Below are positions 7,072 through 26,087 of a DNA stretch of 64,000 nucleotides, piece after piece. The number at the start of each line of letters is the position of its first letter. Positions within the stretch are counted from its first letter, which is position 1. The notes under the pieces are model-generated. The model worked only from the letters and a program-made list of their open reading frames with translations. It had not been told where the DNA came from and searched no databases. The stretch comes from a virus, in IMG/VR virus record IMGVR_UViG_3300010160_000025, positions 1-64,000 of that record; one strand, given 5' to 3'. Both the position numbers and the translations under genes were made by a program.

Positions 7072-7506
7072 ATGTCAGAACAGATTGTATGTAGTGGCGC
7101 CTTATTTTACGCTAAATCAACTCGCAGATTTCTCCTGCTACAAAAAGCAGAAGGCAAACACGCGGGTACATGGGGCTTAGTTGGTGGCACTAACATAGAA
7201 GGCGAGTCTGCGTGGCAAGGCTTGCAGAGAGAAGTTGTCGAAGAAATAGGCACTATGCCTACTATTCTAAAAACAATTCCATTAGAAACTTTTGTATCTA
7301 ACGATACTATTTTTAACTTCCATACATACTTGTGCGTTATAGACTCTGAGTTTATTCCTACACTTAGCAACGAACACAAAGGTTGGGCATGGGCAACAAT
7401 GGATCATGCTCCAAAACCTCTACACCAAGGACTTCGTAACAGTTTTGGTAACAAGATTATTCGTACAAAACTACAAACAATCTTTGATATAGTAGATTTA
7501 ATCTAA
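7072..7506 (+). CDS. Nudix hydrolase
   Basis: 144 residues with a clear Nudix box: G39-x5-E45-x7-R53-E54-V-V-E57-E58-I-G60 (GX5EX7REUXEEXGU; the final hydrophobic position is Thr). Such enzymes hydrolyse nucleoside diphosphates linked to another moiety, such as dNTP/NTP derivatives, ADP-ribose, NAD, FAD or sugar nucleotides. Substrate cannot be told from the sequence. The gene starts 13 bases after gp15 and is followed one base after its stop by an oxygenase gene, so it is probably cotranscribed with the modification genes. It may supply or clear nucleotides or cofactors for them, but that is inference. Confidence 0.88.
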   Translation: MSEQIVCSGALFYAKSTRRFLLLQKAEGKHAGTWGLVGGTNIEGESAWQGLQREVVEEIGTMPTILKTIPLETFVSNDTIFNFHTYLCVIDSEFIPTLSNEHKGWAWATMDHAPKPLHQGLRNSFGNKIIRTKLQTIFDIVDLI

Positions 7507-7507
7507 C

Positions 7508-8065
7508 ATGTCTCAAGTTATACAATCTTCAGTAAACTTAGCCGAGCATCATCGAACATTTATCGAAACACAAGTTCTCGGAAACTACTTTCCTTGGTAT
7601 TGGGTAGGCGGACAAACTGTAACAGTTCCTCCTTCGCCGGTTCCTACAGGACAAAACTCCCCATACTTTAGTCACACTCTCCTTCGCCGCCCTGAAGACA
7701 GAGACGGCACAGCTAGCGATCGTAGCAAATACTTAGAGCCATTTATTGAAATATTCCATCAGTGGAGTTTGGAAAACAATATTGCCTATTCTAAAATATT
7801 GCGAGCAAACTTAAATCTAAATCTAGTATCATTAGATGGGTTTACTGTGCCACATGTGGATCATGATTATCCCCATTCTAACTTTATCATGTACTTAGAT
7901 GATTGCCCAGATGCTGATACTATAGTTTTTTCTGATGATTTTACACAGTACGATTCGTACAAAGCTATAAAGTATACCGCAATAACATTTAATGCACAAT
8001 GGCATGCCCATAAATATCCCAAACCAGGAACACGCAGAACCGTGTTTGTTCTAACATATATATAA
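7508..8065 (+). CDS. 2OG-Fe(II) oxygenase family protein (HVD type)
   Basis: 185 residues. The double-stranded beta-helix signature is visible: metal ligands H116-x-D118 in 'VPHVDHDYPHSN', a strand 'DADTIVFSDDF', distal His at 166 or 168 in 'WHAHKYP', and Arg 176/177 in 'GTRRTVFVLTYI' expected to bind the 2-oxoglutarate carboxylate. It belongs with three other proteins here (starting at 8798, 16260 and 21505) that share PHVD...GDTI.F...H...R. Such enzymes usually hydroxylate a protein or small molecule while decarboxylating 2OG. One base separates it from the Nudix gene; the next gene follows after one base. Substrate unknown. Confidence 0.8.
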   Translation: MSQVIQSSVNLAEHHRTFIETQVLGNYFPWYWVGGQTVTVPPSPVPTGQNSPYFSHTLLRRPEDRDGTASDRSKYLEPFIEIFHQWSLENNIAYSKILRANLNLNLVSLDGFTVPHVDHDYPHSNFIMYLDDCPDADTIVFSDDFTQYDSYKAIKYTAITFNAQWHAHKYPKPGTRRTVFVLTYI

Positions 8066-8066
8066 G

Positions 8067-8795
8067 ATGTTTAGTTTTTTTAAAAAATCGCCGATTGTTT
8101 TTGCATGTAGTATACCTGCGGTATTACATCGATACCCAGTTGAATTAGCATCTAAAGTAAAACGCAGTTGGATTAAATCTAGTGTGGCTGCTTATAAACA
8201 TCAAGTACAGGCTATTGGAAAAACTCAAAGTGTGGCAGGCACAGCAAAGTGTCCCGGATTACATAACATAATGGGAGAAGGTTATATTCTTCGGTCATGG
8301 TTTGACTTAACTGTACAAACTACTAACGACGAGTATTCTTTTAATTGCACATTTCCGGCAGGCATGTCCAGTGTCTGCAAAGACAATAACTTTAATGAAG
8401 AACTAATATCTTCATTTTCAGGCAAACAACCAAACTTAGCAGTTCCGGTCTCTAACGGTAGTATTAAATCGTTAATCAAGATCAATACCCCATGGGCTGT
8501 AAAGATTCCCAAGGGCTGGAGTATGTTAATGTTGCCAGTTAGTTACGGCGATGATACTCGATTTACAGCAAAGCCAGGTATATTTACTGAGGGCGAGTTT
8601 TATACTATTAACCCTATAATTGAATGGCATGTTAAAAACTCTGTAGAAAAAATAGAAGCAGGTACTCCGCTATTGCAGATGATTCCAATTCGATCAGAGA
8701 AGGCGGAAGCAACTATTCAACTGTTTGACAATAGTTTTTATTTAAATCAAAAATATGCTAATTACGAAACTAATCACAAAAATGTTAGGAGCTAG
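8067..8795 (+). CDS. Unknown protein, halogenase-cluster paralogue family (copy A)
   Basis: 242 residues, function not recognised. It is a paralogue of the proteins at 21598-22323 and 23804-24541. Shared landmarks in order are a Lys/Ser-Cys-Pro/Ser-Gly motif ('KCPGLHNIM'), a 'EGYILRSWFDLTVQT' strand pair, 'NTPWAVKIPKGWSMLMLPV' (compare 'DSPWRIQEKTGVKFIFIQP' in copy B), a Pro-Gly turn, and 'IEAGTPLLQMIPI' before a less conserved tail. The pattern suggests an all-beta, possibly cupin-like fold, but I see no convincing metal triad. No signal peptide or membrane segment. It lies between two 2OG oxygenases; copies B and C lie next to halogenases. I infer a helper or enzyme working with these oxidative enzymes. 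Confidence 0.6.
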   Translation: MFSFFKKSPIVFACSIPAVLHRYPVELASKVKRSWIKSSVAAYKHQVQAIGKTQSVAGTAKCPGLHNIMGEGYILRSWFDLTVQTTNDEYSFNCTFPAGMSSVCKDNNFNEELISSFSGKQPNLAVPVSNGSIKSLIKINTPWAVKIPKGWSMLMLPVSYGDDTRFTAKPGIFTEGEFYTINPIIEWHVKNSVEKIEAGTPLLQMIPIRSEKAEATIQLFDNSFYLNQKYANYETNHKNVRS

Positions 8796-8797
8796 TT

Positions 8798-9346
8798 ATG
8801 ATATTACCAGTTAAAAATCTACTAGGCAGTAACAAACTAATACATCTGCAACAGCAAGTTCGTGCCGAAGGCTTAAACTGGTATTACCTTCCCTATATTG
8901 CTTCAAAGACTGATACTCGCAATGATTACTCTGGAAGTTTTGGCCACTTAATATATCAGCATCAGCAAGGTGCTATTAGTGCGCTATTTGAAGTTACAAA
9001 TCAAATATTATTAGATGCACTTGATGCACAAGGACAGCGACTAGAGAAGTTGTTTCGTATACGATTAGGAATGATTACTAGAGCTCCTTATAATAAAGTT
9101 CATGCACCACATATTGACAGTGACGGGCCGCATCGGACTGGTATATTTTATCCTTATGATTCGTCGGGTGACACCATTGTATACAACGAGCAAACAGTTA
9201 GCGATACATATACTGAACAGTTTAGACATAGCCCAACAGAGAATGTATGGTTTGATTTTGATGGGCGCACATTCCATAGTTCCTCTGCGCCCACTGAGCA
9301 CGAAACTAGATTAGTATTAACTTTTAATTATCTTATATATGAATAA
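8798..9346 (+). CDS. 2OG-Fe(II) oxygenase family protein (HID type)
   Basis: 182 residues with H105-x-D107 in 'HAPHIDSDGPHRTG', the strand 'SGDTIVYN', distal H160 in 'GRTFHSS' and R171 in 'ETRLVLTFNYL', a full 2OG-Fe(II) dioxygenase set. An AGGAG ribosome site lies about ten bases before the ATG. The stop overlaps the start of the next oxygenase by eight bases, so the two are probably translationally coupled. Same subgroup as the proteins starting at 7508, 16260 and 21505. Substrate unknown; hydroxylation of an amino-acid side chain or small metabolite is the usual chemistry. Confidence 0.8.
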   Translation: MILPVKNLLGSNKLIHLQQQVRAEGLNWYYLPYIASKTDTRNDYSGSFGHLIYQHQQGAISALFEVTNQILLDALDAQGQRLEKLFRIRLGMITRAPYNKVHAPHIDSDGPHRTGIFYPYDSSGDTIVYNEQTVSDTYTEQFRHSPTENVWFDFDGRTFHSSSAPTEHETRLVLTFNYLIYE

Positions 9347-9989
9347 CCCCATAGTTGAATTAAATGTGTTAGAACAGACTAACATTTTAAGAATTAAATC
9401 TGCTTTTACAAAAGAACAGTGTTTAGAAATTACTAAACAAATTCTTGATTATAAAAACAATGCACCACTTGAGTTAGGAACTAATCAAAATGCTAATCCA
9501 GGTTGTTGGTTAGGTAGGCCGCATTTTCACGGTGGTTTTTCTCCTAATATAGAACAACTACTAATAGATACTTTCAAAGAATCCTGCGATTTATATTATC
9601 AATCAATGCCTAAGCCTGCTAATATTACTAGGCCTAACATAGATAGTATCGATGCAAATAGTTTAGAAGTATGGGCTTGGGCTAATGTCAACGAGCCAGG
9701 AGCAGAGAATAGGGAACATATGCATAATGGCGGATTCATCAGCGGTGTAGCTTATTTTCAAGCAGAAAATACCGGATACATAGAGTTCATGCCCTACAAC
9801 TACACATATAAAATGACACATCAAGCATGGCCCTATACTGGCGTATCGTATTACTACCCAGAAAACGGTGACATTATATTGTTTCCAAGTTTTCTGTTGC
9901 ATAAGATTGAAAGAAATCCCAGTGATAAGCAACGAGTCAATATGGCCTTTAACGCAACGATACCCGGAGTTGGCGGTCTTGCATATTAA
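9339..9989 (+). CDS. 2OG-Fe(II) oxygenase, 2OG-FeII_Oxy_5-like
   Basis: 216 residues resembling the putative 2OG-Fe(II) family PF13759/TIGR02466. It has 'VWAWANVNEPG', then H127-x-H129 in 'REHMHNGGFISGVAYF', 'ENGDIILFPSFLLHKIE' with distal H188, and R199 in 'KQRVNMAFNATIP'. The family often has an H-x-H where classical enzymes have H-x-D. Three relatives are encoded in this window (starting at 17520, 20217 and 61471). The gene overlaps the preceding oxygenase by eight bases and is followed by an 80-base gap before groES, where TTAAATAA near 10028 may be a late-type promoter. Target unknown. Confidence 0.8.
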   Translation: MNNPIVELNVLEQTNILRIKSAFTKEQCLEITKQILDYKNNAPLELGTNQNANPGCWLGRPHFHGGFSPNIEQLLIDTFKESCDLYYQSMPKPANITRPNIDSIDANSLEVWAWANVNEPGAENREHMHNGGFISGVAYFQAENTGYIEFMPYNYTYKMTHQAWPYTGVSYYYPENGDIILFPSFLLHKIERNPSDKQRVNMAFNATIPGVGGLAY

Positions 9990-10069
9990 AACTAGTCCAA
10001 ATCTAACAAAATAGAATCTGCATTACCTTAAATAAGCAGATAGGAATTTTAATCAAGATAGGAGAAAAA

Positions 10070-12038
<1,969 letters not shown>

Positions 12039-12100: not shown

Positions 12101-12538
12101 TTATGGTTTTTCAGGCCAGCGAACTTCCCATGGGAATGTCAGTTGATTTGGTACATCTCTTAAGTCTGCTCTATACCCCTGAAACGCTATCTGTTTTTCG
12201 CTAGATAATCTCGTTTGTCCCGCTGGAGTTTCAGTCCAATCAGATGCGATTAATAGTTGATCGCGTTTTTCGCGAATTTCGGCTTCAAGCTCTTCTTGCT
12301 CTTTAGGCTGAGTTTGAAAACTGCCCATGCCGTGACTAAGTTCTCCGTACTCGCCAGCTTGTAACTTTTCTAACAGAGCTTTAGAAAACTCGTTACGTGC
12401 TCGTTTCCATGCTACGAATTCTACCGGGTTGGAGCATCCTTTAAATAGAACATGGCACCAAATAGTGTCTACAACACCGGTCATATGTTCTCTTACTGGA
12501 ACTTCAACTACATCATCAATTGTGAATACTTTTACCAT
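12101..12538 (-). CDS. Tail fibre assembly chaperone (Tfa-like / Phage_tail_APC)
   Basis: 145 residues. The C-terminal ~45 residues match the phage tail assembly chaperone pattern: 'RDQLLIASDWTETPAG', then 'AFQGYRADLRDVP' and the ending 'FPWEVRWPEKP' (family pattern: lL..sDWT...YR..LRd.p...WP.kP). Such proteins help fold or trimerise tail fibres and are not always part of the virion. The middle part is Glu/Lys-rich and probably helical. GGAG lies before the ATG, and a TATAAATA box overlaps the stop codon of the upstream oxygenase gene. Given the giant fibre genes in this window, they are the natural clients, but which fibre it serves is not shown. Confidence 0.75.
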   Translation of the reverse strand: MVKVFTIDDVVEVPVREHMTGVVDTIWCHVLFKGCSNPVEFVAWKRARNEFSKALLEKLQAGEYGELSHGMGSFQTQPKEQEELEAEIREKRDQLLIASDWTETPAGQTRLSSEKQIAFQGYRADLRDVPNQLTFPWEVRWPEKP

Positions 12539-12565: not shown

Positions 12566-12573
12566 TATTTATA
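12566..12573 (-). promoter_or_regulatory. T4-type late promoter box TATAAATA
   Basis: Perfect TATAAATA on the minus strand, 27 bases before the tail assembly chaperone ATG and overlapping the stop codon of the upstream gene. A second related box, CATAAATA, lies at 12579-12586. Confidence 0.6.
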
Positions 12574-13231
12574 CTTTGTATTTATGTTTCCAACCAATTC
12601 CCGGTCGGTTATCAAATGCAAATTTAGGATAAAAAGGACCGTTTTTATCAATATAGTGAAAAAATGCTTGAACTTGATAGCTACCCGGAGAGGCAACAAA
12701 CGGATCTCTCCAATGCTCAACATCACACCCTCTATAAACTATGATATCGCCCGGATTTTGTTTGATACATTGTCCAGGGTTATTTCCGCTAATAAATTCC
12801 CCGTTTGGTCCAAAACTTACTTTTGTAGATTCTTTATCAACGTACATGCCCCAGTTATAACTAGGATCAGAAACTATATAATTATTGCCAAGGCATACTG
12901 TTGTACTAATTTCGCAACTCTCTCGGTCTTTGTGTCGTTTTAGATCTGCACCAGGGCGATATACTCGATAATAGGTATACGTAGGACACAGAGATAACCC
13001 TGTATTTTTTTCCATAATGGGTAACAAGAAGTGAAGTAGTGTTTCCATTAAGGTATCAGAGTAAACAGAATGAACTCCTGCTACTTGTGCGTCTGCGCCT
13101 TCGGGAGTAAACTCACATTCTTCTTTTAACAAAGCATATTTGGTTGCTACTCTGCATATGTCGGCAGGTAATACTGATTTTAAATCCAAATAACTGTCTT
13201 GTTTAAATTGTTCAGGGTTTGTCATTTCCAT
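12569..13231 (-). CDS. 2OG-Fe(II) oxygenase-like protein (HKD type)
   Basis: 220 residues from ATG 13231 (MEMTNPEQF), chosen because AGGA lies five bases upstream; ATG 13225, in ATGA overlap with the upstream stop, is an alternative, and a third start at 13252 is less likely. Ligands: H100-x-D102 in 'DLKRHKDRESCEIS' and H173 in 'CDVEHWRDPF', followed by the strand 'YQVQAFFHYID'. The Arg usually binding 2OG is not obvious, as in several viral relatives. 'NPGDIIVYRG' precedes the distal His. The protein is likely a prolyl-hydroxylase-fold enzyme; substrate unknown. Cotranscribed with two similar genes upstream. Confidence 0.72.
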   Translation of the reverse strand: MEMTNPEQFKQDSYLDLKSVLPADICRVATKYALLKEECEFTPEGADAQVAGVHSVYSDTLMETLLHFLLPIMEKNTGLSLCPTYTYYRVYRPGADLKRHKDRESCEISTTVCLGNNYIVSDPSYNWGMYVDKESTKVSFGPNGEFISGNNPGQCIKQNPGDIIVYRGCDVEHWRDPFVASPGSYQVQAFFHYIDKNGPFYPKFAFDNRPGIGWKHKYKV

Positions 13232-14007
13232 GGTTTTCCTAAATTCCAACACACTAGACTAAATCTAGTACCCTTTGTAACCGGCGTTACTTGGTGATGT
13301 ACATGTGAAGGGAATACTACTATAGATCCTTTTGGTCTTATTTCTGTGCATAAATGATATCGGTCAGGACGGTGAGGACCAAGATCAAATCGTAGATTAC
13401 CTCCAGAATACTGTGCCGGATCGTTAAGACTAACAGTAACACTTAGTTTTCTAATTTTACCTACCATTTGTTGATTGGTTGTTCGATGAAACTCTTCGGG
13501 CATTTCTGCGCCGCCCATGTCAATCATTGGTGTGCCGTCTTGATTTTTATGAATAGCATGAATCTCAGGATCAAAATTGTCATAAACGTGTTCATTAGCA
13601 TCAGTGTGCCAGCCATAAAATTGACCTTTACTATATTTTGTAAACTGAAAATTCTCAGTATAATCCCAATCAAAATTCCACCCTGCGCTAGCATTCGCTT
13701 TATGTATATACGGCCATATCAGTTGGTATAATGACGGATCATCTAAAAACGTCACATTTGAATCTCTAACATAAACTGATGCAGGATCTATCTTTTTTTT
13801 CTGTAGACCAGATACTGTATGGTCCTGTACAGGGACTGTACTATTTTCATTTTTTTGTCTCCAGCCGCCCACTGTTGCATTAGTGATATCTTTTCCAAAT
13901 GTTTCTTCTTGGTCGGCCATCTTATTAAGACCAATTTCAATAATTTGATCGCAAACCTCAGGCGGAATAGCCGAAATAAAAAACCAATAATAGTATTTTA
14001 AAATCAC
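13222..14007 (-). CDS. 2OG-Fe(II) oxygenase, PKHD/prolyl-4-hydroxylase type
   Basis: 261 residues with a complete P4Hc/PKHD-type site: H134-x-D136 in 'GQFYGWHTDANEHVYD', the strand 'RKLSVTVSLNDPAQYSGG' with 'NLRFDLG', 'GSIVVFPSHVHHQVTPVT' with distal H238, and R248 in 'KGTRFSLVCW'. This subtype is common in T4-like marine phages and is related to enzymes that hydroxylate proline or other residues in proteins. The start overlaps the stop of the gene at 14004-14615 by four bases, and its stop overlaps the next start, so the three genes form one operon. Confidence 0.88.
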   Translation of the reverse strand: MILKYYYWFFISAIPPEVCDQIIEIGLNKMADQEETFGKDITNATVGGWRQKNENSTVPVQDHTVSGLQKKKIDPASVYVRDSNVTFLDDPSLYQLIWPYIHKANASAGWNFDWDYTENFQFTKYSKGQFYGWHTDANEHVYDNFDPEIHAIHKNQDGTPMIDMGGAEMPEEFHRTTNQQMVGKIRKLSVTVSLNDPAQYSGGNLRFDLGPHRPDRYHLCTEIRPKGSIVVFPSHVHHQVTPVTKGTRFSLVCWNLGKPWK

Positions 14008-14615
14008 TTAAACAAAGCTCCGTGTACACTACCAATGATGAATTTTGCATTGCCTTTTGTAATTTTATTAATTTTAAATGCAGTGTATGATGGAAATACC
14101 AAACAAACACCCCTATCATTAATGCCGGCATTTTTGGTGTCTACATTTAAAAATTCAATCTCGCCGCCATCGTATTCAGTTGGATCGGTTAGATTAATAA
14201 TAAACGTTAGTTTTCTAGAAGGAGCCATTGGGTTTAATTCCATGTGCCAGTTATACTCATCGCCTTCTGAATATTTAAAAATTTGTGGAAAATCTTGATC
14301 TATGATTCCAAGCAAGTTAAAATCATATACATTATCGTTGGCATCTTTAGTAACTGTTCTAATATCTAAAAATGGAAAACCCTGTACATCTCCACGAAGT
14401 TTTTGTCTACTTGCTGAATGTAATGCTTTGTCCCCAACTACTTTGGTGGGCAACCATAGTTCCTCAATACAGCTATTTAAAATAGTATCGCACTGCTCAG
14501 GAGTAAAGACATCTGATTTATTAACGGATACAATATCTAAAGAGGCAAGTTTGGCAGTTACTGCGTAGTCTGTGAACTGGTCGGTATTACTTAGTTCTAA
14601 ATTTTCGTCTGACAT
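14004..14615 (-). CDS. 2OG-oxygenase-fold protein with degenerate active site
   Basis: 203 residues aligned by eye with its neighbour at 13222-14007: 'NWHMELNPMAPSRKLTFIINL', 'YDGGEIEF' and 'GVCLVFPSYTAFKINKITKGN'. The proximal pair is H124-x-E126 rather than H-x-D. The distal His is replaced by F180, and the 2OG-binding Arg by A190. The fold should be kept, but Fe(II)/2OG catalysis by the usual mechanism is doubtful. It could be a pseudoenzyme subunit pairing with the intact neighbour, or a binding protein. The gene overlaps the next by four bases. AGGAG lies before the ATG, and a GATAAGTA box is at 14641-14648. Confidence 0.7.
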   Translation of the reverse strand: MSDENLELSNTDQFTDYAVTAKLASLDIVSVNKSDVFTPEQCDTILNSCIEELWLPTKVVGDKALHSASRQKLRGDVQGFPFLDIRTVTKDANDNVYDFNLLGIIDQDFPQIFKYSEGDEYNWHMELNPMAPSRKLTFIINLTDPTEYDGGEIEFLNVDTKNAGINDRGVCLVFPSYTAFKINKITKGNAKFIIGSVHGALFK

Positions 14616-16916: not shown

Positions 16917-17520
16917 AAGATAGTGATACTCGGCGGTCGTCTTCGTCTGTTGTCATATTTTGTTCTACATAATGACTGAGATGGCCGGGAAATAATATTA
17001 ACATTCCTTCCGCTGGTACAAACCAATGTTCTGTATTAGTTCTACTGTTGTTAGTGTTTAACTTTTCATCGTAGATAATTTTAGTTAAAAAATTCATTCT
17101 GTCAGCTTCATTTTGTGCCCGTGTAAAATATATATTTCCACTATCTTTAGGAACTTTTAAGTAGTACACTCCACTAATAAAAGAAGAGCCGTGAGTATGT
17201 TCTCGGTTATATGTATATTTTGGATTTACATTATACCAATAACTAATTTTATCAGGTGAACAGGGTAGTTGCCAAGATTTAATAACTATTTTTGCGGCGG
17301 GAACTATATATTTTTCAAAAAGTTGCATTACGGGGTAGTTATCATAGTTGGGATTCCCCATCGCCAATGACTGCCACCCGCCAACATTACTTCTAATATT
17401 TCCCGGACTAGTTTGTTGCATTTGAAAGATGCTGTCAGTAATGCCCTGATTGTCCACTCCTTTTAAATAAGTAGTAAAGCAGGAAGAAACAAATAGTAAA
17501 TTTTCTTGTAGTGTAGTCAT
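16903..17520 (-). CDS. 2OG-Fe(II) oxygenase, 2OG-FeII_Oxy_5-like
   Basis: 205 residues from ATG 17520 (MTTLQEN). An upstream ATG at 17538 would put the TATAAATA box inside the gene, so 17520 is preferred. Landmarks: 'SYWYNVNPKYTYNREHTHG' with H108-x-H110, 'SGVYYLKVPKDSGNIYF', 'AEGMLILFPGHLSHYVEQN' with H183, and 'DRRVSLSFNFS'. This is the PF13759 pattern with all key residues. It is a single-gene unit on the minus strand between two plus-strand halogenase units, overlapping the end of the upstream oxygenase. Substrate unknown. Confidence 0.85.
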   Translation of the reverse strand: MTTLQENLLFVSSCFTTYLKGVDNQGITDSIFQMQQTSPGNIRSNVGGWQSLAMGNPNYDNYPVMQLFEKYIVPAAKIVIKSWQLPCSPDKISYWYNVNPKYTYNREHTHGSSFISGVYYLKVPKDSGNIYFTRAQNEADRMNFLTKIIYDEKLNTNNSRTNTEHWFVPAEGMLILFPGHLSHYVEQNMTTDEDDRRVSLSFNFS

Positions 17521-17525
17521 GAAAA

Positions 17526-17533
17526 TATTTATA
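17526..17533 (-). promoter_or_regulatory. T4-type late promoter box TATAAATA
   Basis: Perfect TATAAATA on the minus strand, five bases from the preferred ATG at 17520. As at 4123 and 21513 the distance to the start codon is very short. Confidence 0.5.
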
Positions 17534-17549
17534 AACATCGGCCTTTAAA

Positions 17550-19022
17550 ATGAACAAACTTGAAAAGATATCAATCATCGGTGGCGGCACGGCTGGCTTT
17601 GTTGCAGCCTTGATTTTAAAGACTAGATTCCCTCAAAAAACTATAGAAGTTATACGATCTACAAAAATTGGTATCATTGGTGTAGGCGAGGGCAGTACTG
17701 AACATTGGACAGAGTTTGTAAACTATATCGGTGTTAATCCCCGTGCAGTAATCTCCCATTGCGATGCTACATTTAAATCTGGAATTATGTTTAAGGGGTG
17801 GGGGAAGCACGACTACTTACATAGTATAGGCCCAGAATCTGATATTAGAAACGGGCAATACCAAGCAGTATACGGTAAACTAATATCAGAAGGTGCACCA
17901 AAAGAGCTGTTTAATCCAAGCCTTGCATGGCAGAATAGAATATTTGAACATCAGCTAGATCCAAATGAAATTTTACCCTACAATCAGTTTCATTTTAACA
18001 CTAACAAGCTGAACGAGTTTCTCACAACCGTGGCTAAACTAAAAGATATTAATGTTATAGATGATGAAATCGTTGATATTGAACTAAATGATCAAGGCGA
18101 AATTAAAAAAGTAATAGGAGAAAAACAATCCTACGAAGCAGATTTTTACATTGACAGTACAGGTTTTAAAAAAATATTAATTTCTAAGTTAGGTGCTAAA
18201 TGGCAAAGTTATAGTGAATATTTAAAAATGAATTCTGCTATAGTATTTCCAATAGAGGACACAGAAGAGTATAATATGTGGACTGTGGCGCAGGCAATGG
18301 ACTATGGCTGGATGTTTAAAATACCAGTTTGGGGACGTAGCGGCAATGGTTATATATTTGACAGTAACTATATCACACCGCAACAGGCCCAGGAAGAAGT
18401 TGAAAAGTTTCTAGGACACTCTATCACTGTTGGTAAACATTTGACATTTGATCCGGGCGCTTTAGATCAAGTATGGATCAAAAACTGCTGTGCTATTGGA
18501 CTAAGTGCAAGTTTTGTAGAACCGTTAGAAGCAACTAGTATTGGCTCAAGTATTCAACAATCATTTTTATTAATGCATCGTTTACCGAACTATAATGAAA
18601 AAACTATAAAAAGATATAACAAGGATGTTTCTGATATATTGACCAATATACGAGATTTTGTTATTCTTCATTATATAACCAATAGAAACGATACAGATTT
18701 TTGGAAAGATGTTGCTAAAATAAAACTTCCCGATAGCTTATCTGAGAATTTAGAAAAGTGGCGCAACAATCTGCCTATAGCAGAAGACTTTCGCGGAACA
18801 ACTGATTATGTCATGTTTAGAGAATCGCACTACATACATGTTCTCAACGGATTACGATTGTTTAATCAAGAAAATATTCGTCGAGAATATAAGATGCAAG
18901 CTCTTAAAATACAAGAGTGGGCCGACAGTGTAGTTAGAGAAAAACAAACATTTGAAAAACTCCACCCAAGTATTGGGCATAAAGAGTTTATAGGGCGCAC
19001 ACGTAATCTAGTTAAAAAATAA
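17550..19022 (+). CDS. Flavin-dependent halogenase, tryptophan-halogenase family (copy 2)
   Basis: 490 residues. FAD loop GGGTAGF at 11-17, 'GVGEGSTE' at ~44-51, lysine K76 in 'DATFKSGIMFKGW', and 'FVEPLEATS' with catalytic Glu equivalent E327. The signature at 254-259 is WMFKIP, with Phe in place of the second Trp of WxWxIP. In PrnA-type enzymes that motif keeps the flavin site from acting as a monooxygenase. Copies 1 and 2 share EPLEATS, while copies 3 and 4 have EPLESTG, so two subgroups are present. The gene stands alone on the plus strand, flanked by oxygenases on the minus strand, and its end overlaps the gene at 19008 by 15 bases. Confidence 0.9.
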   Translation: MNKLEKISIIGGGTAGFVAALILKTRFPQKTIEVIRSTKIGIIGVGEGSTEHWTEFVNYIGVNPRAVISHCDATFKSGIMFKGWGKHDYLHSIGPESDIRNGQYQAVYGKLISEGAPKELFNPSLAWQNRIFEHQLDPNEILPYNQFHFNTNKLNEFLTTVAKLKDINVIDDEIVDIELNDQGEIKKVIGEKQSYEADFYIDSTGFKKILISKLGAKWQSYSEYLKMNSAIVFPIEDTEEYNMWTVAQAMDYGWMFKIPVWGRSGNGYIFDSNYITPQQAQEEVEKFLGHSITVGKHLTFDPGALDQVWIKNCCAIGLSASFVEPLEATSIGSSIQQSFLLMHRLPNYNEKTIKRYNKDVSDILTNIRDFVILHYITNRNDTDFWKDVAKIKLPDSLSENLEKWRNNLPIAEDFRGTTDYVMFRESHYIHVLNGLRLFNQENIRREYKMQALKIQEWADSVVREKQTFEKLHPSIGHKEFIGRTRNLVKK

Positions 19023-19634
19023 TACTTGATTAATACGATGTATATTAAAAAATTCATTGGATGAAATATCCATCCCATGTAAAAATTTTGCGCCGTCAAA
19101 CATTATTAGTCGATTAAACTTTCCATCTAACTGTTTTATAATTTTATATTTGTTTTTTGGACGCCAGGGTGCAAAATGCTCAGGCGTATCCCACTCGTCT
19201 AGAGCAATCTGCTCGTATAGGTTGGTAACTCCCCCGCTGGCATTTAAATATATAATAGCATTATAACCCAGATCTCGATGCGGGCCCCAATAGTTATTTT
19301 TATAGTCGTTAAATTCTGTATCAATAAACTTAATGCAGTTTGTGTTAACTGTTCCAGGAGATCTTAGTGGTTGATTGCATATTATTGATAGCCCTATGCT
19401 AATTTCCTTAAACTGTTCATTATAAAAATTATGTCGACGATCTGTAAAATGTATATTATTAAATGATGGCGTTTCTTTTTCTTTCCAAAGTTTGGCAGGC
19501 TCTGTTAGAAACAAATAAGATAATAACTCATCTGGATATTTGTAAAAATCATCCATGATATATATGTTGGAGTCTTGAAACTTTTCTACTGTTATATTTT
19601 CAAGATTGTTAGTTTCAAAAATTTTATTTAACAT
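19008..19634 (-). CDS. 2OG-Fe(II) oxygenase-fold protein, DUF6445-like
   Basis: 208 residues. H119-x-D121 in 'NYWGPHRDLGYNAIIYLN', 'GGVTNLYEQ', 'NRLIMFDGAKFLHGMD' with distal H186, and R200 in 'FNIHRINQVLFF' give a complete jelly-roll dioxygenase set. The arrangement 'PHxD...NLY...MFdg..fHg' recalls the DUF6445 family, known from marine bacteria and phages near halogenases and oxygenases; that name is from memory and not checked. It starts one base after the stop of the next oxygenase upstream. Substrate unknown. Confidence 0.72.
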   Translation of the reverse strand: MLNKIFETNNLENITVEKFQDSNIYIMDDFYKYPDELLSYLFLTEPAKLWKEKETPSFNNIHFTDRRHNFYNEQFKEISIGLSIICNQPLRSPGTVNTNCIKFIDTEFNDYKNNYWGPHRDLGYNAIIYLNASGGVTNLYEQIALDEWDTPEHFAPWRPKNKYKIIKQLDGKFNRLIMFDGAKFLHGMDISSNEFFNIHRINQVLFFN

Positions 19635-19635: not shown

Positions 19636-20217
19636 CTAATTAAAGTTCATTGCTATCGATATTCGATTCTCAGTATTTGTTCCAGGTTCTACCATGTGAC
19701 GAAGGTATGATCTAAAAATTAATAAAGATCCAACTTTAGGAGGATATCCTATTCTTGAAAAACTCAACTGGTTTCTTGAGGGTATATTTTTTATAGGGCA
19801 CATGTCAGGTTCTTTAGGATCTTCAAAAACAATTTCGCCTGACCCTTCAGGCGCACTAACATAATATACTGCACTGAAAACAGATCCATTGTGTGTGTGA
19901 AATTCTTGAAAGTTTTTTCCGGTAGATACATTTGCCCATGCGCCACCGTTTATATAGGATCCAGTTGACCCGTGCATTTTTGAAAATTCGTATATATGCT
20001 CAGTAACTGCGACTATCAGCGGTTTGAAAAGCGGATCAGTTCTTAAATCATAGGTACAGTGTGTATTGTACGTGTCACCGATCCATCCGTCGCCGCCATT
20101 GGGAATGGTTTCTTGCAATTTTAGTATAGCAGTTTCCCATATTTTATTTTGTTCCTTTGTGAATAAATCAGATTGATGATATATTGCCACTGGAAACCAT
20201 AATGCTACTTCAGCCAT
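19636..20217 (-). CDS. 2OG-Fe(II) oxygenase, 2OG-FeII_Oxy_5-like
   Basis: 193 residues matching PF13759: 'GGAWANVSTGKNFQEFHTHN' with H107-x-H109, 'FSAVYYVSAPEGSGEIVFEDP', 'VGSLLIFRSYLRHMVEPGT' with H174, and R185 in 'ENRISIAMNFN'. The usual LFPS is IFRS here. A GGCGGAT stretch before the ATG may serve as a ribosome site. It lies in a four-gene minus-strand operon (21505 to 19008) together with a methyltransferase and two other oxygenases. Confidence 0.85.
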   Translation of the reverse strand: MAEVALWFPVAIYHQSDLFTKEQNKIWETAILKLQETIPNGGDGWIGDTYNTHCTYDLRTDPLFKPLIVAVTEHIYEFSKMHGSTGSYINGGAWANVSTGKNFQEFHTHNGSVFSAVYYVSAPEGSGEIVFEDPKEPDMCPIKNIPSRNQLSFSRIGYPPKVGSLLIFRSYLRHMVEPGTNTENRISIAMNFN

Positions 20218-20244: not shown

Positions 20245-20922
20245 TCATGCATATATCTCATATATTGGATAGTTTGCGTTTTTTTTAAAAACTGTAAAAC
20301 TATTTTGTATTTTTTTGTGCGGTTCTACAAACGTTATCATTTCAAACTCGTCACTTAGCTTGTTTTTTAGTTTAATCTCTGCTAAAAACAAGCGACCAAA
20401 AGCATTACCTGCTGTACTATGTATGATTATAATGCCACCAGGTAGTAACTGTTTGTAGGCACAATCAAACAAGTAAGCATACTCGGCGCCACTGCCAAAG
20501 TCTAACCAAATAAAGTCATATTTGTTGTGCTGAGTACTTATAGTTTTTAAAAACTCAAGACCTTCGTCAGTAACAAACTCAACTAATGTGTTTAAGTTTT
20601 CTTGTTTTAATATTTCAGGAACATCGTCAACTGCATAATCTTGATTAAATGTATCAACAACGGTAAATTTAGGATTATATCTGTTTTCCATAAACGCATT
20701 ATCTTTGTTGTTTATAAAAAATTCGTTGGGTTGTTTACTGTAATCTTCTTTTTTGATATCGTCGATTGCCTTTGCTAAAAATAAAGTTGAGTATCCTGCA
20801 CCAATTTCTAATATATTTTGAGGACGACAGCATCTAATCATTGAATACAAAAATACAGAAACTTCTTCTGTTAAGAAGTTTTTTGATAAAAGTTCAGTGT
20901 ATCGTGTATTGATTAATGACAT
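20245..20922 (-). CDS. SAM-dependent methyltransferase, class I (O-methyltransferase-like)
   Basis: 225 residues. Motif I 'NILEIGAGYSTLFLA' at ~36-50 is the SAM-binding glycine loop. 'KFTVVDTF' follows where an acidic residue for the ribose is expected. 'YDFIWLDFGSGAEYAYLFD' and 'LLPGGIIIIHST' form the next strands, as in the Methyltransf_24 / catechol-O-methyltransferase-like group. The substrate is not predictable; such enzymes often methylate hydroxyl groups, including ones made by oxygenases. The start follows the stop of the neighbouring oxygenase after one base, so it is translationally linked to it. A methyl cap on a hydroxylated product would fit the context but is inference. Confidence 0.82.
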   Translation of the reverse strand: MSLINTRYTELLSKNFLTEEVSVFLYSMIRCCRPQNILEIGAGYSTLFLAKAIDDIKKEDYSKQPNEFFINNKDNAFMENRYNPKFTVVDTFNQDYAVDDVPEILKQENLNTLVEFVTDEGLEFLKTISTQHNKYDFIWLDFGSGAEYAYLFDCAYKQLLPGGIIIIHSTAGNAFGRLFLAEIKLKNKLSDEFEMITFVEPHKKIQNSFTVFKKNANYPIYEIYA

Positions 20923-20923: not shown

Positions 20924-21505
20924 TTATAGGGGTTCTAAGTTAATATTAAGTATTACTCGTCTATTACTATTGATTGGATTACTAGCAGTATGATATCTAA
21001 GTCCGTTAAATGCTATTAGCCTATTTGCCTTAGGTGAAATACGTTGTTTAGTAGTAAATGTTGTTGGCCTATCCAATATTGTAAATTGTTGATTAAAAAA
21101 CCAAGTATCGCCATCAGAGTCGTTAAGATAAAAGATTAATACATCGTGGGGACACGGGTAATCTACATGTGGAATATTATAATTTTCAGATGTAAATCCA
21201 ACCTTTGGAGTTTTTTGACTTAGTCTAGCTCTCACTAGATGATCCCTTGTGTATCCTAATTCGTCTTCTAACCGGGCCATAAAAATATCAAGCCATTTAT
21301 ATGTAAAACTCTCAATACCAGATTGTCGGTCATATATTATATGGTGCAGGCCGTCTGTTTCAATGGCCATTGGATCTATTACATGATTTTCTTCGGGAGC
21401 GATTGATACCGTTTCAGCATAGAACCATGGAAACTCTTCGCTAAGAACCGCGCGGTGCCATCGATTAAAGTCGTCCAGTGGCAAAAAATTATCTATTATG
21501 TGCAT
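20924..21505 (-). CDS. 2OG-Fe(II) oxygenase family protein (HVD type)
   Basis: 193 residues with H113-x-D115 in 'NIPHVDYPCPHDVLIFYLN', 'SDGDTWFFNQQF', H172 in 'GLRYHTASNP' and R182/183 in 'NRRVILNINL'. First gene of the minus-strand operon that continues with a methyltransferase and two more oxygenases. A perfect TATAAATA lies seven bases before the ATG. Same subgroup as the proteins starting at 7508, 8798 and 16260. Substrate unknown. Confidence 0.84.
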   Translation of the reverse strand: MHIIDNFLPLDDFNRWHRAVLSEEFPWFYAETVSIAPEENHVIDPMAIETDGLHHIIYDRQSGIESFTYKWLDIFMARLEDELGYTRDHLVRARLSQKTPKVGFTSENYNIPHVDYPCPHDVLIFYLNDSDGDTWFFNQQFTILDRPTTFTTKQRISPKANRLIAFNGLRYHTASNPINSNRRVILNINLEPL

Positions 21506-21512: not shown

Positions 21513-21520
21513 TATTTATA
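21513..21520 (-). promoter_or_regulatory. T4-type late promoter box TATAAATA
   Basis: Perfect TATAAATA on the minus strand, seven bases before the oxygenase ATG at 21505. In the same 92-base divergent gap, TATAAGTA at 21547-21554 on the plus strand could drive the genes from 21598. Confidence 0.55.
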
Positions 21521-21597
21521 AAATATTTTGTGGGGCTGTAAAAAAATATAAGTACTACTATGAATCACTGTATACTTGCTATTATTTAGGATCCAAA

Positions 21598-22323
21598 ATG
21601 TTTGATATTTTTTTTAAAAGAAAGAAAATAGTTATAGACTGCTTTACTACCAACATAAATGCTCATAAGCTATTTCCTATACAACGTGCCGCAAGATTTT
21701 ATCCAGAATGGTGGAAGCAATTACCAAAAAGTGAAATGATAGAAAATAATGTTGGTTTACTAGTTGAGCGGCCAACAATAAAATCGTGTAGCGGGATTAA
21801 TAACTTGTATCAAGAAGGATTTGTGATCCCTTTATGGAGCGATGTAGTTATACAAACACGTGGCTTGAACTATTTGTTTACATTTGCTGATGGTGTTAGT
21901 TCGTTACCTTATCACAATTTAGACCAGTTAGGTTCAGATTTTTACGGATTTCTAAATATCAAATTTGATTCTCCTTGGAGAATACAAGAAAAAACAGGTG
22001 TTAAGTTTATCTTTATACAGCCTAGTTGGAATAATCCGATAGATTTGTTTAACAGCCATGCACTTCCGGGAGTTGTTGAATTTAAACATCAGCACACTAG
22101 CAATATAAACATGCTGATGTCTCGCCAACAACGATATCAGTGGGATGCTGGAAGGCCGTTGGCCCATGTAATACCAATTACTGATCAAGATATAGAAGTC
22201 AAAACACATCTAGTCGGCGAAGTTGAAGCTAGAGCTATGCAAGTTTTTAACCAACGTTCTCCATTTTTTTCAGGTTCGTACAAAAAGACTAAACAAATTA
22301 ATAAAGGAGTATGTCCGTTTTGA
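21598..22323 (+). CDS. Unknown protein, halogenase-cluster paralogue family (copy B)
   Basis: 241 residues, not recognised. Landmarks shared with copy A (8067) are 'IKSCSGINNLYQEGFVIP', 'WSDVVIQTRGLNYLFTFADG', 'DSPWRIQEKTGVKFIFIQP', 'LPGVVEFKHQHTSNINML', and 'WDAGRPLAHVIPI'. The tail 'QRSPFFSGSYKKTKQ' then 'KGVCPF' recalls the end of copy C ('NKKRCPYDK'). AGGA lies before the ATG. The last 13 bases overlap the start of halogenase copy 3, so the two are made together. The repeated coupling with halogenases suggests a dedicated partner, perhaps a substrate-binding, scaffold or reductase-like protein, but no cofactor motif is visible. Confidence 0.6.
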   Translation: MFDIFFKRKKIVIDCFTTNINAHKLFPIQRAARFYPEWWKQLPKSEMIENNVGLLVERPTIKSCSGINNLYQEGFVIPLWSDVVIQTRGLNYLFTFADGVSSLPYHNLDQLGSDFYGFLNIKFDSPWRIQEKTGVKFIFIQPSWNNPIDLFNSHALPGVVEFKHQHTSNINMLMSRQQRYQWDAGRPLAHVIPITDQDIEVKTHLVGEVEARAMQVFNQRSPFFSGSYKKTKQINKGVCPF

Positions 22324-23807
22324 AAATATCTAGCATAGTAATAGTTGGTGGTGGAACTAGCGGATGGCTCACAGCCGCTTACTTGTCAAATGCCTGTCCG
22401 GAAGTCTCTATAACAGTAATTGACAAAGAGATAGGAACTCCCATTGGAGTTGGGGAAGCTACCTTATTAAATTTTAAACCATTCATGGAAGAATGTGGAT
22501 TTGAAGTTGATGATTGGTTTTCTAAAATAGATGCTGGTTATAAATCTGGGATTTTATTCACAAACTGGTGTAAATCAAATCACGAAATTTGGCACCCGTT
22601 TTATAAAGGAAATCGAACAGTATCGATTGGCAATACAAAAAACAAACCGGTATACATGCACGATGTATGGTCAAAAGCACAACATCTTGATTTTAAGAAA
22701 TACAGTTTAGGCTACTACGAAGCATCTATTGATCACAATGTTGTTGATTCGTCAAGTTTGCACAACTATGCTTTTCATGTTGACTGCGGCAAGTTGGTTA
22801 CATACATTCAAGAAAAAATAAAAGATAAAATTAATATTATTCGTTCAGACGTTGTCAATGTTGTAGTTAATGATAGCGGCGGGGTCAAGCATTTAGAACT
22901 AAAAAATGGCAGTACAATCACTACTGATTTGTTTGTTGACTGTACTGGGTTTAAAAATCTATTAAGAGCTCCTAAAAAACGAGTTGATTTGACGGATCGC
23001 TTATTTGTCAATACCGCAGTGGTATGCCAAGTTCCTTATAAAGATCGCCCTGAAGAATTTAAACCATATGCTGTTTGTGATGCAGTGGATCATGGATGGA
23101 TATGGAAGATAGGTGTTAGTAGTCGTATAGGTAGCGGGTTAGTGTTTAACCGTGATCTTACCAGTATCGATGAAGCCAAACAATGTTTTGCAGATTACTG
23201 GAAAGGCCGAGTAGATATAGATAAAATTCGAGTGATTGATTGGACTCCGTTCTATAATAAAGATCAGTGGGAAGATAATGTTGTCAGTATTGGACTAAGT
23301 GCTGGATTTATTGAGCCACTGGAAAGTACAGGAATAGGGTTAATCACTGCTGGTATCACACAATTAAACAATGTTGTTAGAGAACAATATTATGACCAAG
23401 ACAATGTTGATTTTTTTAATCTACAAATGAAATTATATTTTGAAGACTGTGTTGATTTTGTATCAGGACATTATGCTAACAACAACAGAACAAGTAAGTT
23501 TTGGAATTTTGTCAAAGATAAATTTGAGCCTTCTGAAAAAATGAAATATTTTATTGAACATCTTGCTGACCCCACTATCAATATACCCTACAATGGCAAG
23601 TTTAACTTGATATTTGCAGGGGTTAACTGGTCGCTGATGTTATTACAACTTGGTTATCCTGTTGCTCCAAGAGATATCGATATCACAGATGAGCAAGCTG
23701 AAGAACTATTGATCAAGAACTATTTAAAATATGAAAAACATAAACATGTATGGTCTCGACCACATAGTTTAGAAGTAGATAGATTATCAGAAATAAGTAA
23801 ATTATGA
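22311..23807 (+). CDS. Flavin-dependent halogenase, tryptophan-halogenase family (copy 3)
   Basis: 498 residues. FAD loop GGGTSGW at 13-19, 'IGVGEATLLNF' at ~45-55, lysine K78 in 'DAGYKSGILFTNW', and 'GFIEPLESTG' with catalytic Glu equivalent E338 followed by Ser, as in PrnA (E346-S347). The signature at 263-268 reads WIWKIG: both Trp are kept, but the final Pro is Gly. An AAAGGAG site lies about six bases upstream of the ATG within copy B. The stop overlaps the next gene by four bases (ATGA). This gives a tight operon: copy B, halogenase 3, copy C, halogenase 4. Confidence 0.92.
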   Translation: MSVLKISSIVIVGGGTSGWLTAAYLSNACPEVSITVIDKEIGTPIGVGEATLLNFKPFMEECGFEVDDWFSKIDAGYKSGILFTNWCKSNHEIWHPFYKGNRTVSIGNTKNKPVYMHDVWSKAQHLDFKKYSLGYYEASIDHNVVDSSSLHNYAFHVDCGKLVTYIQEKIKDKINIIRSDVVNVVVNDSGGVKHLELKNGSTITTDLFVDCTGFKNLLRAPKKRVDLTDRLFVNTAVVCQVPYKDRPEEFKPYAVCDAVDHGWIWKIGVSSRIGSGLVFNRDLTSIDEAKQCFADYWKGRVDIDKIRVIDWTPFYNKDQWEDNVVSIGLSAGFIEPLESTGIGLITAGITQLNNVVREQYYDQDNVDFFNLQMKLYFEDCVDFVSGHYANNNRTSKFWNFVKDKFEPSEKMKYFIEHLADPTINIPYNGKFNLIFAGVNWSLMLLQLGYPVAPRDIDITDEQAEELLIKNYLKYEKHKHVWSRPHSLEVDRLSEISKL

Positions 23808-24541
23808 AAATAGTCAAATGGTCGTTCAATACCAGTCACGAATGGGATGTTGACCACCCGGAGTGCATTAAACCATTAGTAGATGGAGATTATTATCCGT
23901 TCAAACATCTAACTAAAGAAGCCACTGCTGTTAGAAAAGGCGCAACATTTTTAAAATGTCCGGCGCATACTGATTTTTTAAAAAATACATTTATATTCTG
24001 TGCTCCGTTTGACATAACAATAGAGCTTGATATAAAAGATGAAGGTGCAAGTAGGATATTTTGTGAAAACATTACCCAAGAACAATTTGAAAAATTAATT
24101 GATATGCGATTTTTATACAATGTTGACCGAGGTATTAATCCTTATCCGATTGTGGGTATTGATTGGTTGACTACTTTTCAAACTGACGAGTCTATGCTGT
24201 TACAAGTTTTTCCAGCTTTCATGCATCGTAATGATTTTACCGAAAAAGCAACAGTAGTCCCGGGGGAGTACGATATTAGCAAATGGACTAGGCCCGTTGA
24301 ATGTGTTTTTGAAGTTCGATCAAATGTTGAAAAGATTGTTATTAAAAAAGGTGATGCTATTTCTTATTTTAAATTTCACAGTGATGAAATCGTTAAACTT
24401 GAAAATCAACCAACACCGTGGCCAGATATACATCAGTGTAATGAAATACGTAATCAAAATGTATTCCGTCCTTTGAAAGAAAGATATCAGGCATTGGTTG
24501 AAGACAATAAAAAAAGGTGTCCGTATGATAAGCAAGATTAA
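23804..24541 (+). CDS. Unknown protein, halogenase-cluster paralogue family (copy C)
   Basis: 245 residues, not recognised. It is the most divergent of the three paralogues, but keeps the order 'FLKCPAHTDFLKNTFIF', a Trp-centred 'GIDWLTTFQTDESMLLQVFP' region, 'VVPGEYDISKW', 'IVIKKGDAISYFKF' and a Lys/Cys-rich end 'ERYQALVEDNKKRCPYD'. Predicted mostly beta, soluble, without signal peptide. It is sandwiched between halogenases 3 and 4, overlapping the former by four bases and the latter by 17 bases when the start at 24525 is used. Role unknown; the position argues for a partner of halogenase function. Confidence 0.6.
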   Translation: MKIVKWSFNTSHEWDVDHPECIKPLVDGDYYPFKHLTKEATAVRKGATFLKCPAHTDFLKNTFIFCAPFDITIELDIKDEGASRIFCENITQEQFEKLIDMRFLYNVDRGINPYPIVGIDWLTTFQTDESMLLQVFPAFMHRNDFTEKATVVPGEYDISKWTRPVECVFEVRSNVEKIVIKKGDAISYFKFHSDEIVKLENQPTPWPDIHQCNEIRNQNVFRPLKERYQALVEDNKKRCPYDKQD

Positions 24542-26087
24542 TAATATTGTAGTTGTTGGTGGTGGTAGTGCCGGTTGGATAGTGGCTACTACTCTGATAT
24601 CTCAGTTGCCCAATACTAAAATTACAGTGATTGAAAGTCCAAACATACCAACTGTTGGGGTAGGGGAAAGCACTATCGGTGGCATACGTGCATGGCTAAG
24701 ATTAGTTGGAATAAAAGACAATGATTTTATGTCTGCTTGTGATGCCAGTTACAAGCTAGCCATCAAATTTAATAATTTTTACAAACAAGATTCAGGGGCT
24801 TGGTATTATCCGTTTGGCGCTCCCTATTTGAAAGATACTATGCACGGGAGAGATGACTGGTTTATTAAAAAAACGCTGTATCCTAACACCCCAACAGAAG
24901 ATTATGCAAACACGTATTATTCTCAAATGGCTCTAGTTAATTCTAATACAATTCTTACAAACAATTTAGATCTAGATGGTTTTGATTTTTATAATCATAC
25001 AGCATTTCATTTTGATGCGGCCAAATTGGGAATATGGTTACGTGATCAATATTGTAAACCAAAAGGTATTAATCATATCGCCGCTGAAGTTGTAGAAATA
25101 ACACAGGATGATTCTGGAATTAAAGAACTTATATTGAGTTCAGGTGAAACAGTAACAGCTGATCTGTTTGTGGACTGTACTGGATTTAAATCATTGCTAC
25201 TGGGAGATGCACTGCAAGTTCCATTCAAAAGTTATGAACACCTATTGCCTAACAATCGTGCATGGGCCACTAGAATTGAATATACTGATAAAGAAAAACA
25301 ATTGGACTCAGTTACAGACTGTACTGCGTTAGATAACGGCTGGGTTTGGAATATACCTCTATGGAGTAGGATTGGCACTGGCTACGTTTACAGTGATAAA
25401 TTTATTAGTCCAGAACAAGCCAAACTAGATTTTATTACACATTTGCAATCAAAAGGGTACGATACTAAACATTGCGAATTTAGAGATATTAATATACGTG
25501 TAGGCATGCATGAAAAATTATGGGTTAAAAATGTAGTGGCTCTAGGTCTCAGTGCGGCTTTTATTGAACCATTAGAAAGTACTGGATTACTTACTACGCA
25601 CGATTTTGCTAAAACTTTGTGTAATGTGTTATTACGTGGTAGTGTTAGCCAATGGGATCGAGACGAGTTTAATTTAAAATGTGAAGATGAGTTTAACTAC
25701 TGGGCACAATTTGTAAGTATGCATTATGCATTGAGTCATCGAGACGATAGTGAATACTGGAGAGCCATTAGTAGGAAATCATTTACAGACTTAACACCAT
25801 TTGTTAATAAAATGCAAACTCAAGGTTTGTATTTTCAAACTATGTATCAAAAAAACTTTGTAAAATTTTTCCAAGACGACAACGGTATTAATTGCTTGGC
25901 GGCAGGAATGAACTGGAATCCCAACGACTATGTAACATTACGCAGTATATTTGCTGTTGGTACAGATCTAAGAGAAGAGTTTGGTCTAATTATTATGCGA
26001 TTAACTGAAAGACAAACAAAATGGAAAGAGGCTGTAAAAACAGCCCCTAGTCTATATCAGTATCTTAAAGATAAGTTTTATAGTTAA
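24525..26087 (+). CDS. Flavin-dependent halogenase, tryptophan-halogenase family (copy 4)
   Basis: 520 residues from ATG 24525 (MISKINNIVVVGGG). The frame is open from 24498, but 24525 has AGGTG six bases upstream and puts the FAD loop near the N-terminus, as in the other copies. GGGSAGW at 12-18, 'GVGESTIGG' at ~45-53, lysine K77 in 'DASYKLAIKF', WVWNIP at 273-278 (complete WxWxIP), and 'FIEPLESTG' with catalytic Glu equivalent E351 followed by Ser. All active-site landmarks of PrnA/RebH-type halogenases are present. The 3' end overlaps by four bases the convergent glycine-rich fibre gene. Confidence 0.94.
   Translation: MISKINNIVVVGGGSAGWIVATTLISQLPNTKITVIESPNIPTVGVGESTIGGIRAWLRLVGIKDNDFMSACDASYKLAIKFNNFYKQDSGAWYYPFGAPYLKDTMHGRDDWFIKKTLYPNTPTEDYANTYYSQMALVNSNTILTNNLDLDGFDFYNHTAFHFDAAKLGIWLRDQYCKPKGINHIAAEVVEITQDDSGIKELILSSGETVTADLFVDCTGFKSLLLGDALQVPFKSYEHLLPNNRAWATRIEYTDKEKQLDSVTDCTALDNGWVWNIPLWSRIGTGYVYSDKFISPEQAKLDFITHLQSKGYDTKHCEFRDINIRVGMHEKLWVKNVVALGLSAAFIEPLESTGLLTTHDFAKTLCNVLLRGSVSQWDRDEFNLKCEDEFNYWAQFVSMHYALSHRDDSEYWRAISRKSFTDLTPFVNKMQTQGLYFQTMYQKNFVKFFQDDNGINCLAAGMNWNPNDYVTLRSIFAVGTDLREEFGLIIMRLTERQTKWKEAVKTAPSLYQYLKDKFYS

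Follow-up and report, generated by a model that had tools for sequence, protein, structure and literature searches.

For phage halogenases, including VirX1, which came to light in about 2010-2019, no native substrate has been assigned, and they are usually classed as auxiliary metabolism. The active site of VirX1 is unusually open, and a review gives no natural product for the enzyme (PMC8407142). A 2010 study described several 2-oxoglutarate (2OG) oxygenase genes per cyanophage, together with one or two copies of prnA, and read them as nitrogen signalling (Sullivan et al., PMC3037559), and a 10-gene halogenase/2OG/cupin/carbamoyltransferase cluster of S-SSM6a was later read as secondary-metabolite or capsule chemistry (Iyer et al. 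2021, PMC7824862). Clusters of halogenase and 2OG genes in cyanophages have therefore already been reported, and the locus described here is a new variant with a sharper proposed function. It lies in bases 1-64000 (the window) of the 152,808-bp IMG/VR virus record IMGVR_UViG_3300010160_000025, where four full-length PF04820 halogenase genes and eleven 2OG-oxygenase-fold genes occupy positions 7508-26087, between gp15 and a convergent tail-fibre gene block on the opposite strand (26084-57307). The halogenase and oxygenase families of this cassette are absent from the remaining 88.8 kb of the contig, and hence the clustering is not due to chance. The presence of a conserved block of ~15 enzymes beside host-binding fibre genes suggests chemical self-modification of tail proteins in some phages. 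We consider it an evenly balanced proposition that this is a mobile late tail-fibre maturation cassette of T4-like phages, which would halogenate and hydroxylate virion adhesins; we infer the virion-protein substrate, the residues and the benefit. It is put forward more tentatively that an exchangeable protein-halogenation/hydroxylation system, of which VirX1 would be one part, tailors tail-fibre adhesins of T4-like phages post-translationally.

The N-terminal sequence of VirX1 (PDB 6qgm) matched exactly a gene of cyanophage Syn10 (L361 8004-9596), the neighbours of which encode glycine-rich proteins with 35, 22 and 26% Gly, another halogenase in tandem, a member of the U family and a series of 2OG- or cupin-like proteins. 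VirX1 belongs to the same kind of cassette, at a homologous locus, and its citation as a single viral halogenase in a preliminary description of the window is misleading, given the tandem arrangement and the 2OG-rich surroundings. The fourth halogenase of the window, HAL4, shares clade, fold and catalytic residues with VirX1 at ~38% identity. Unlike the Syn10 locus, the window includes halogenases of four viral clades, more oxygenases, GroES/GroEL and a V-family protein, and, as judged by gp23, comes from another phage group. A related gene set occupies the corresponding position in the cyanophages S-RIM44 and Sf-CH11 and in Pelagibacter phage HTVC008M, and also in Syn10, where it lies beside glycine-rich fibre genes. 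The S-RIM44 and Syn10 clusters have in common with the window the glycine-rich fibres, tandem halogenases, U and the oxygenase families ox5, oxA and oxB, with neck/gp15 genes next to them in S-RIM44, but only two halogenases are present at the locus, all genes are on one strand, and GroEL and the oxC/oxD pair are missing. In the jumbo cyanophages S-SSM6a and S-SSM7, a halogenase and 2OG/cupin enzymes also lie near tail-fibre and neck genes; however, carbamoyltransferase, sugar kinase and epimerase genes occur there that are absent from the window cassette. A link of such cassettes to tail fibres, or an account of the VirX1 neighbourhood, was not found in the open-access literature, a search that did not extend to preprints, subscription papers or the original paper on VirX1.

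The phage is T4-like, and its gp23 is closest (67-71%) to those of the jumbo T4-like group of Sinorhizobium phage Phosso, Vibrio phage 2.275.O and PA5oct, not to those of cyanophages. Halogenase matches in the phage collection were spread over cyanophages, phages of Pelagibacter and Campylobacter, and a small number of uncultured or other records; identity was never above 60%, and none, by organism name, came from the Phosso/PA5oct/2.275.O group. A single-sequence search of viral contigs with HAL3 returned one locus.

Halogenase searches of IMG/VR and gene maps gave 125 non-redundant loci, 87 of them of at least 10 kb. The ordered module of the window is shared by about 18 non-redundant IMG/VR loci. 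It consists of Nudix, GroES, GroEL, fibre chaperone, oxB, oxC, oxD, HAL1, oxA, ox5, HAL2, ox5, oxA, (U), HAL3, V and HAL4, and is followed on its right side by three genes for glycine-rich fibres, one for an S74-type fibre, p30648 and giantA. The order of at least 15 genes is maintained at 60-75% identity. Purifying selection was seen in every gene tested, the median ratio of non-synonymous to synonymous substitution rates (dN/dS) being 0.08-0.21 for the halogenases, 0.08-0.15 for the oxygenases and 0.06 for gp15. A 2OG gene lies within 1 kb of a halogenase in 63 of the 87 loci, and 58 include at least three. In a control sample anchored on gp15 and not chosen by halogenase (32 non-redundant loci with at least 7 kb downstream), 2OG genes were present in 12/12 halogenase-positive but only 6/20 halogenase-negative loci (Fisher p=8e-5), and in most of the latter gp15 and Nudix are followed (nearly) directly by a different large fibre gene. 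The oxygenase families were almost never seen in 79 cellular halogenase loci, though 30 of these hold at least two halogenases. Together with the gp15 control, this marks the halogenase-2OG pairing, within these samples, as a trait of phages. In Aestuariibacter genomes (L180 and L184), a cellular multi-halogenase cluster of a separate kind was observed, with four halogenase matches in ~17 kb and none of these 2OG genes.

These data bear on the view that unrelated auxiliary genes have gathered in the island as an insertion hot-spot beside fibres and have separate targets, such as host proteins, 2OG signalling or DNA. Cassette content is highly variable between near-identical backbones, and 2OG/nitrogen signalling has been proposed for cyanophage 2OG enzymes (Sullivan et al. 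2010, PMC3037559). Against this, the order of at least 15 genes kept over 60-75% identity, the coupling of HAL3, V and HAL4 (HAL3 is upstream of V in 19 of 27 cases), the conservation of a pseudo-oxygenase, and the strong halogenase-2OG association in a sample not picked by halogenase make this explanation unlikely.

Two loci with a gp15 96% and 92% identical to that of the window phage (L247 and L249, respectively) lack halogenases and GroEL in the stretch compared, yet a locus with a gp15 only 54% identical (L275) has the same ordered module. Cassettes are thus exchanged between near-identical backbones, and they track one tail-fibre type. The giantA-type fibre was found in 8/8 complete 2OG-positive loci versus strongly in 1/8 2OG-negative loci, and glycine-rich tips were associated with oxygenases (p=0.003), both in small samples compared with no phylogenetic correction. 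In known fibres, the tips that bind the receptor are glycine-rich domains (PMC9608196). In the tips only weak conserved Trp/Tyr/His columns (H294, Y382) were seen, in a poor alignment, and collagen-like Gxx repeats, considered as a prolyl-hydroxylase substrate, were rejected as the longest run was six triplets and none was convincing. A tblastn search of the phage collection with the glycine-rich fibre protein gave no match, for which low-complexity filtering is the probable reason.

In the mechanism proposed, halogenases dependent on flavin adenine dinucleotide (FAD) would late in infection use host-supplied reduced FAD (FADH2), O2 and halide, and, with the Fe(II)/2OG oxygenases, would modify aromatic and aliphatic side chains of neighbouring fibre proteins, assisted by the fibre-assembly chaperone and GroES/GroEL. 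Candidate substrates are the adhesins of the glycine-rich tips, the giant fibre giantA as the alternative, or both, and the host-binding surface would be changed or stabilised as a result. A flavin reductase was not found in the contig by PF01613, and therefore FADH2 has to be supplied by the host or by the unsequenced remainder. Four facts argue for a virion-protein substrate: the cassette lies beside one fibre type and co-varies with it; the module includes a fibre chaperone and a chaperonin; late-type motifs are present; and small-molecule or glycan machinery was not recognised. Also counted in its favour are LodB, GoxB and QhpG, protein maturases that are weak, far-below-cut-off matches to the halogenase fold. 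These distant relatives act on a protein substrate, although their similarity is very low and they catalyse monooxygenation, not halogenation.

TATAAATA is rarer than expected by chance over the whole window (3 versus 8.5), and hence only its placement is informative; each of the three sites lies at the start of a cassette gene and on its strand. Upstream of the fibre chaperone the TAAATA core was seen in 18/18 orthologues, and upstream of GroES in 12/18; in the window it also precedes hal1, giantA, bpB and the gp23-side oxygenase. Of 409 upstream regions, 89 had it in the sense and 55 in the antisense orientation. Its placement fits T4-type late transcription, though this is only suggestive.

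Several points weigh against a virion-protein substrate. Adjacency to fibre genes could by itself reflect an insertion hot-spot. One locus (G037) has ten oxygenases and two halogenases but tips that are not glycine-rich, another (G039) has the fibre type but no enzymes, and some cyanophage halogenases are located elsewhere (P-SSM2 and the third copy of S-RIM44). The association tests are small and uncorrected for phylogeny, and VirX1 works on small aromatics in vitro.

The cassette might make or decorate a small molecule during infection, such as a halogenated metabolite derived from an amino acid or indole. The best-studied halogenase relatives use free Trp or indoles, and this chemistry was proposed for the S-SSM6a 10-gene cluster (Iyer et al. 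2021, PMC7824862). It is rather unlikely here: among the genes of the cassette, of which U and V have no assigned function, none was recognised as a scaffold-forming enzyme or synthase, a ligase, a carrier protein or an exporter, and the cassettes track fibre type. In addition, the cassette is nearly gapless (largest gaps ~80-110 bp), with little room for a precursor-peptide gene, open reading frames (ORFs) of <80 amino acids and the rest of the genome not having been searched separately.

Alteration of a host or phage surface glycan, or of a host envelope component, in superinfection exclusion or receptor alteration is distinctly improbable for the window, in which sugar-handling genes were not recognised and the predicted chemistry is better suited to aromatic side chains. 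The S-SSM7 halogenase (L363 8078-18338), however, has as neighbours the genes for a carbamoyltransferase, a sugar kinase, a phosphoheptose isomerase and a nucleotide-sugar epimerase, so that some phage halogenases may act in glycan chemistry, and closeness to adhesin genes is also compatible with receptor biology.

As the cassette tracks tail-fibre type, the role of viral halogenases becomes directly testable on the fibre proteins of cultured phages (Syn10, S-RIM44 and Sf-CH11). Were fibre proteins the substrate, protein halogenation would enter virus biology, to our knowledge as the first that is virus-encoded, and receptor-binding proteins would gain a chemical diversity beyond sequence that is overlooked by sequence-based host prediction. 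The loci are also a source of candidate biocatalysts, with halogenases and oxygenases in the hundreds that are both diverse and conserved.

The preliminary description, made from the letters of the window, had listed four tryptophan-type halogenases, eleven 2OG-fold genes (ten with metal ligands) and a twelfth beside gp23, and each of these assignments holds. All four halogenases gave full-length PF04820 matches (E-values 1e-88 to 1e-106) and include the GxGxxG loop, the active-site Lys and the EPLE Glu. The WxWxIP motif is exact in HAL1 and HAL4, and is replaced by GWMFKIP in HAL2 and GWIWKIG in HAL3. The fold and the catalytic Lys and Glu are shared with PrnA, RebH, PyrH and Thal, although those enzymes serve small-molecule pathways. 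Among 222 viral homologues, the Lys and Glu are invariant (222/222), and the GxGxxG dinucleotide-binding loop is kept in 214-218. In a tree with 55 cellular sequences, the window halogenases fell into four separate viral clades, only HAL4 branching with VirX1. The sole cellular row inside any viral clade, nested in that of VirX1 (L166 8001-9593, Deltaproteobacteria metagenome-assembled genome, contig JABDFK010000005.1), may represent a misbinned phage contig. Close relatives mostly carry four or five halogenase genes, and no internal stop codons were found in these genes.

Five of the eleven 2OG-fold genes pass Pfam 2OG cut-offs, and the other six are backed by PHROG matches and by HxD/H...H(...R) ligands conserved in orthologues. 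The iron ligands HxD/H...H are intact, and kept across orthologues, in ten of the eleven. The exception is oxD (p14004), in which the third ligand is His in 0/16 module copies, being replaced by Tyr, Trp or Phe, as compared with His in 43/51 copies outside the module. With a dN/dS of 0.11, oxD is a conserved pseudo-enzyme, and its position adjoining oxC in nearly every module map suggests a non-catalytic partner. The twelfth gene (p61016) is assigned to TIGR02466/2OG_Oxy_5. Modification of phage DNA bases by these enzymes would have a precedent in phage 2OG enzymes that act on nucleic acids, AlkB-like (PMC7824862), but the Pfam matches are of the Oxy_3 and Oxy_5 types with no TET/JBP or AlkB match, and a DNA role of halogenases is not known, which makes this most improbable. 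The PHROG labels 'DNA endonuclease V' (phrog_274) and 'ferrochelatase' (phrog_2954) were encountered on 2OG-fold families with conserved HxD..H (window 7508-9346, 12569-13252, 16260-16916 and 20924-21505); both are probably wrong and spreading into phage annotations.

The preliminary description had further read the cluster as a multi-step system, to be checked by a search of related viral contigs for the same families. A recurrent, ordered halogenase/2OG set under selection does co-occur in them, and that part of the reading stands; Nudix membership and conserved methylation do not. Nudix follows gp15 in 28/32 gp15-anchored loci and adjoins it in Pseudomonas phage Ettore, and because it is found with or without the cassette, it was rejected as a member of the system. 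The methyltransferase had no orthologue among the fetched viral loci, its sole match being itself, and methylation as a conserved step is not supported. GroES/GroEL (10070-12038), the tail-fibre-assembly gene (12101-12538) and three U/V genes (8067, 21598 and 23804) had not been named. U and V are related, cassette-specific families with no assigned function. Models of U (21598..22323) and V, with predicted local distance difference test (pLDDT) scores of 85.7 and 91.6, respectively, showed beta-rich folds with a weak dUTPase-like resemblance (Foldseek E 2e-3 and TMq 0.3 for U). A dUTPase-like function was not adopted, as the matches were weak (E about 2e-3, TMq mostly 0.24-0.39).

Table 1. 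Coordinates of the cassette genes and flanking features in the window.
Feature	Position	Strand	Match or remark
Virion structural protein, gp14-like neighbour	3919..5712	+	phrog_11591, match from residue 76; boundary gene, outside cassette
Tail sheath stabiliser gp15	5712..7058	+	phrog_11196/227; fixed left edge of variable island; anchors 32 loci
Nudix hydrolase	7072..7506	+	PF00293 6.9e-15
oxA-family 2OG-fold oxygenase p7508	7508..8065	+	phrog_274; HxD..H..R in at least 32/35 orthologues
U-family protein, cassette-specific	8067..8795	+	phrog_7084
oxA-family 2OG-fold oxygenase p8798	8798..9346	+	phrog_274; ligands 61-63/63
Oxy_5 2OG-Fe(II) oxygenase p9339 (HxH..H)	9339..9989	+	PF13759 6.5e-17
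Co-chaperonin GroES	10070..10384	+	phrog_3188 6.8e-25
Chaperonin GroEL	10371..12038	+	phrog_5725 1.6e-144
Tail fibre assembly (TFA-type) chaperone	12101..12538	-	phrog_4912 1.5e-15
oxB-family 2OG-fold oxygenase p12569	12569..13252	-	phrog_2954; HxD..H in 73/74
oxC 2OG-Fe(II) oxygenase (Oxy_3) p13222	13222..14007	-	PF13640 1.2e-13; H238 60/61, R248 60/61
oxD pseudo-oxygenase p14004	14004..14615	-	PF13640 3e-07
Halogenase HAL1	14726..16279	+	PF04820 8.6e-91
oxA-family 2OG-fold oxygenase p16260	16260..16916	+	phrog_274; ligands 10/10
Oxy_5 2OG-Fe(II) oxygenase p16903	16903..17538	-	PF13759 3e-20
Halogenase HAL2	17550..19022	+	PF04820 1.3e-95
2OG-fold protein oxE p19008	19008..19634	-	phrog_1644; weak DUF6445; HxD..H..R
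Oxy_5 2OG-Fe(II) oxygenase p19636	19636..20217	-	PF13759 7.9e-22
Methyltransferase (Methyltransf_24)	20245..20922	-	PF13578 2.7e-09; cassette membership doubtful
oxA-family 2OG-fold oxygenase p20924	20924..21505	-	phrog_274 5.2e-33; TATAAATA 8 bp upstream
U-family protein	21598..22323	+	phrog_7084
Halogenase HAL3	22311..23807	+	PF04820 2.2e-88; WxWxIG motif
V-family protein between HAL3 and HAL4	23804..24541	+	phrog_17480
Halogenase HAL4, VirX1 clade	24498..26087	+	PF04820 1.7e-106; best PDB match VirX1 6qgm 1.3e-106
Three tandem glycine-rich (29-32% Gly) fibre-tip proteins	26084-27205, 27219-28367, 28381-29466	-	composition; phrog_2295/863
Tail fibre protein with S74-type chaperone C-terminus	29469..30623	-	phrog_5668/1699
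p30648, small protein marking giantA fibre type	30648..31001	-	
giantA, 3454-aa fibre protein, Trp/Tyr-rich N-terminal repeats	31026..41390	-	
giantB, 3109-aa fibre protein, giantA paralogue	41444..50773	-	
Twelfth 2OG-Fe(II) oxygenase p61016 beside gp23	61016..61474	-	TIGR02466 2.1e-17 / 2OG_Oxy_5

The GTG start of the gp14-like neighbour is probably too early, and the true start of HAL4 is likely the ATG at 24525. An extra divergent, short (~390-405 amino acids) halogenase-like ORF was observed in addition to full-length ones (G010:C1:24337-25380), with homologues in G011, G012, G014 and G026 (only one full-length in G026). Among the fibre genes, the N-terminus of giantA (window 40100-41390, minus strand) includes Trp/Tyr-rich repeats of the form W..Y..GDVV..GG..Y.C...HTS that resemble carbohydrate-binding modules. 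In the rest of the same contig (L006), an ORF of 5155 amino acids adjoins a glycine-rich protein.

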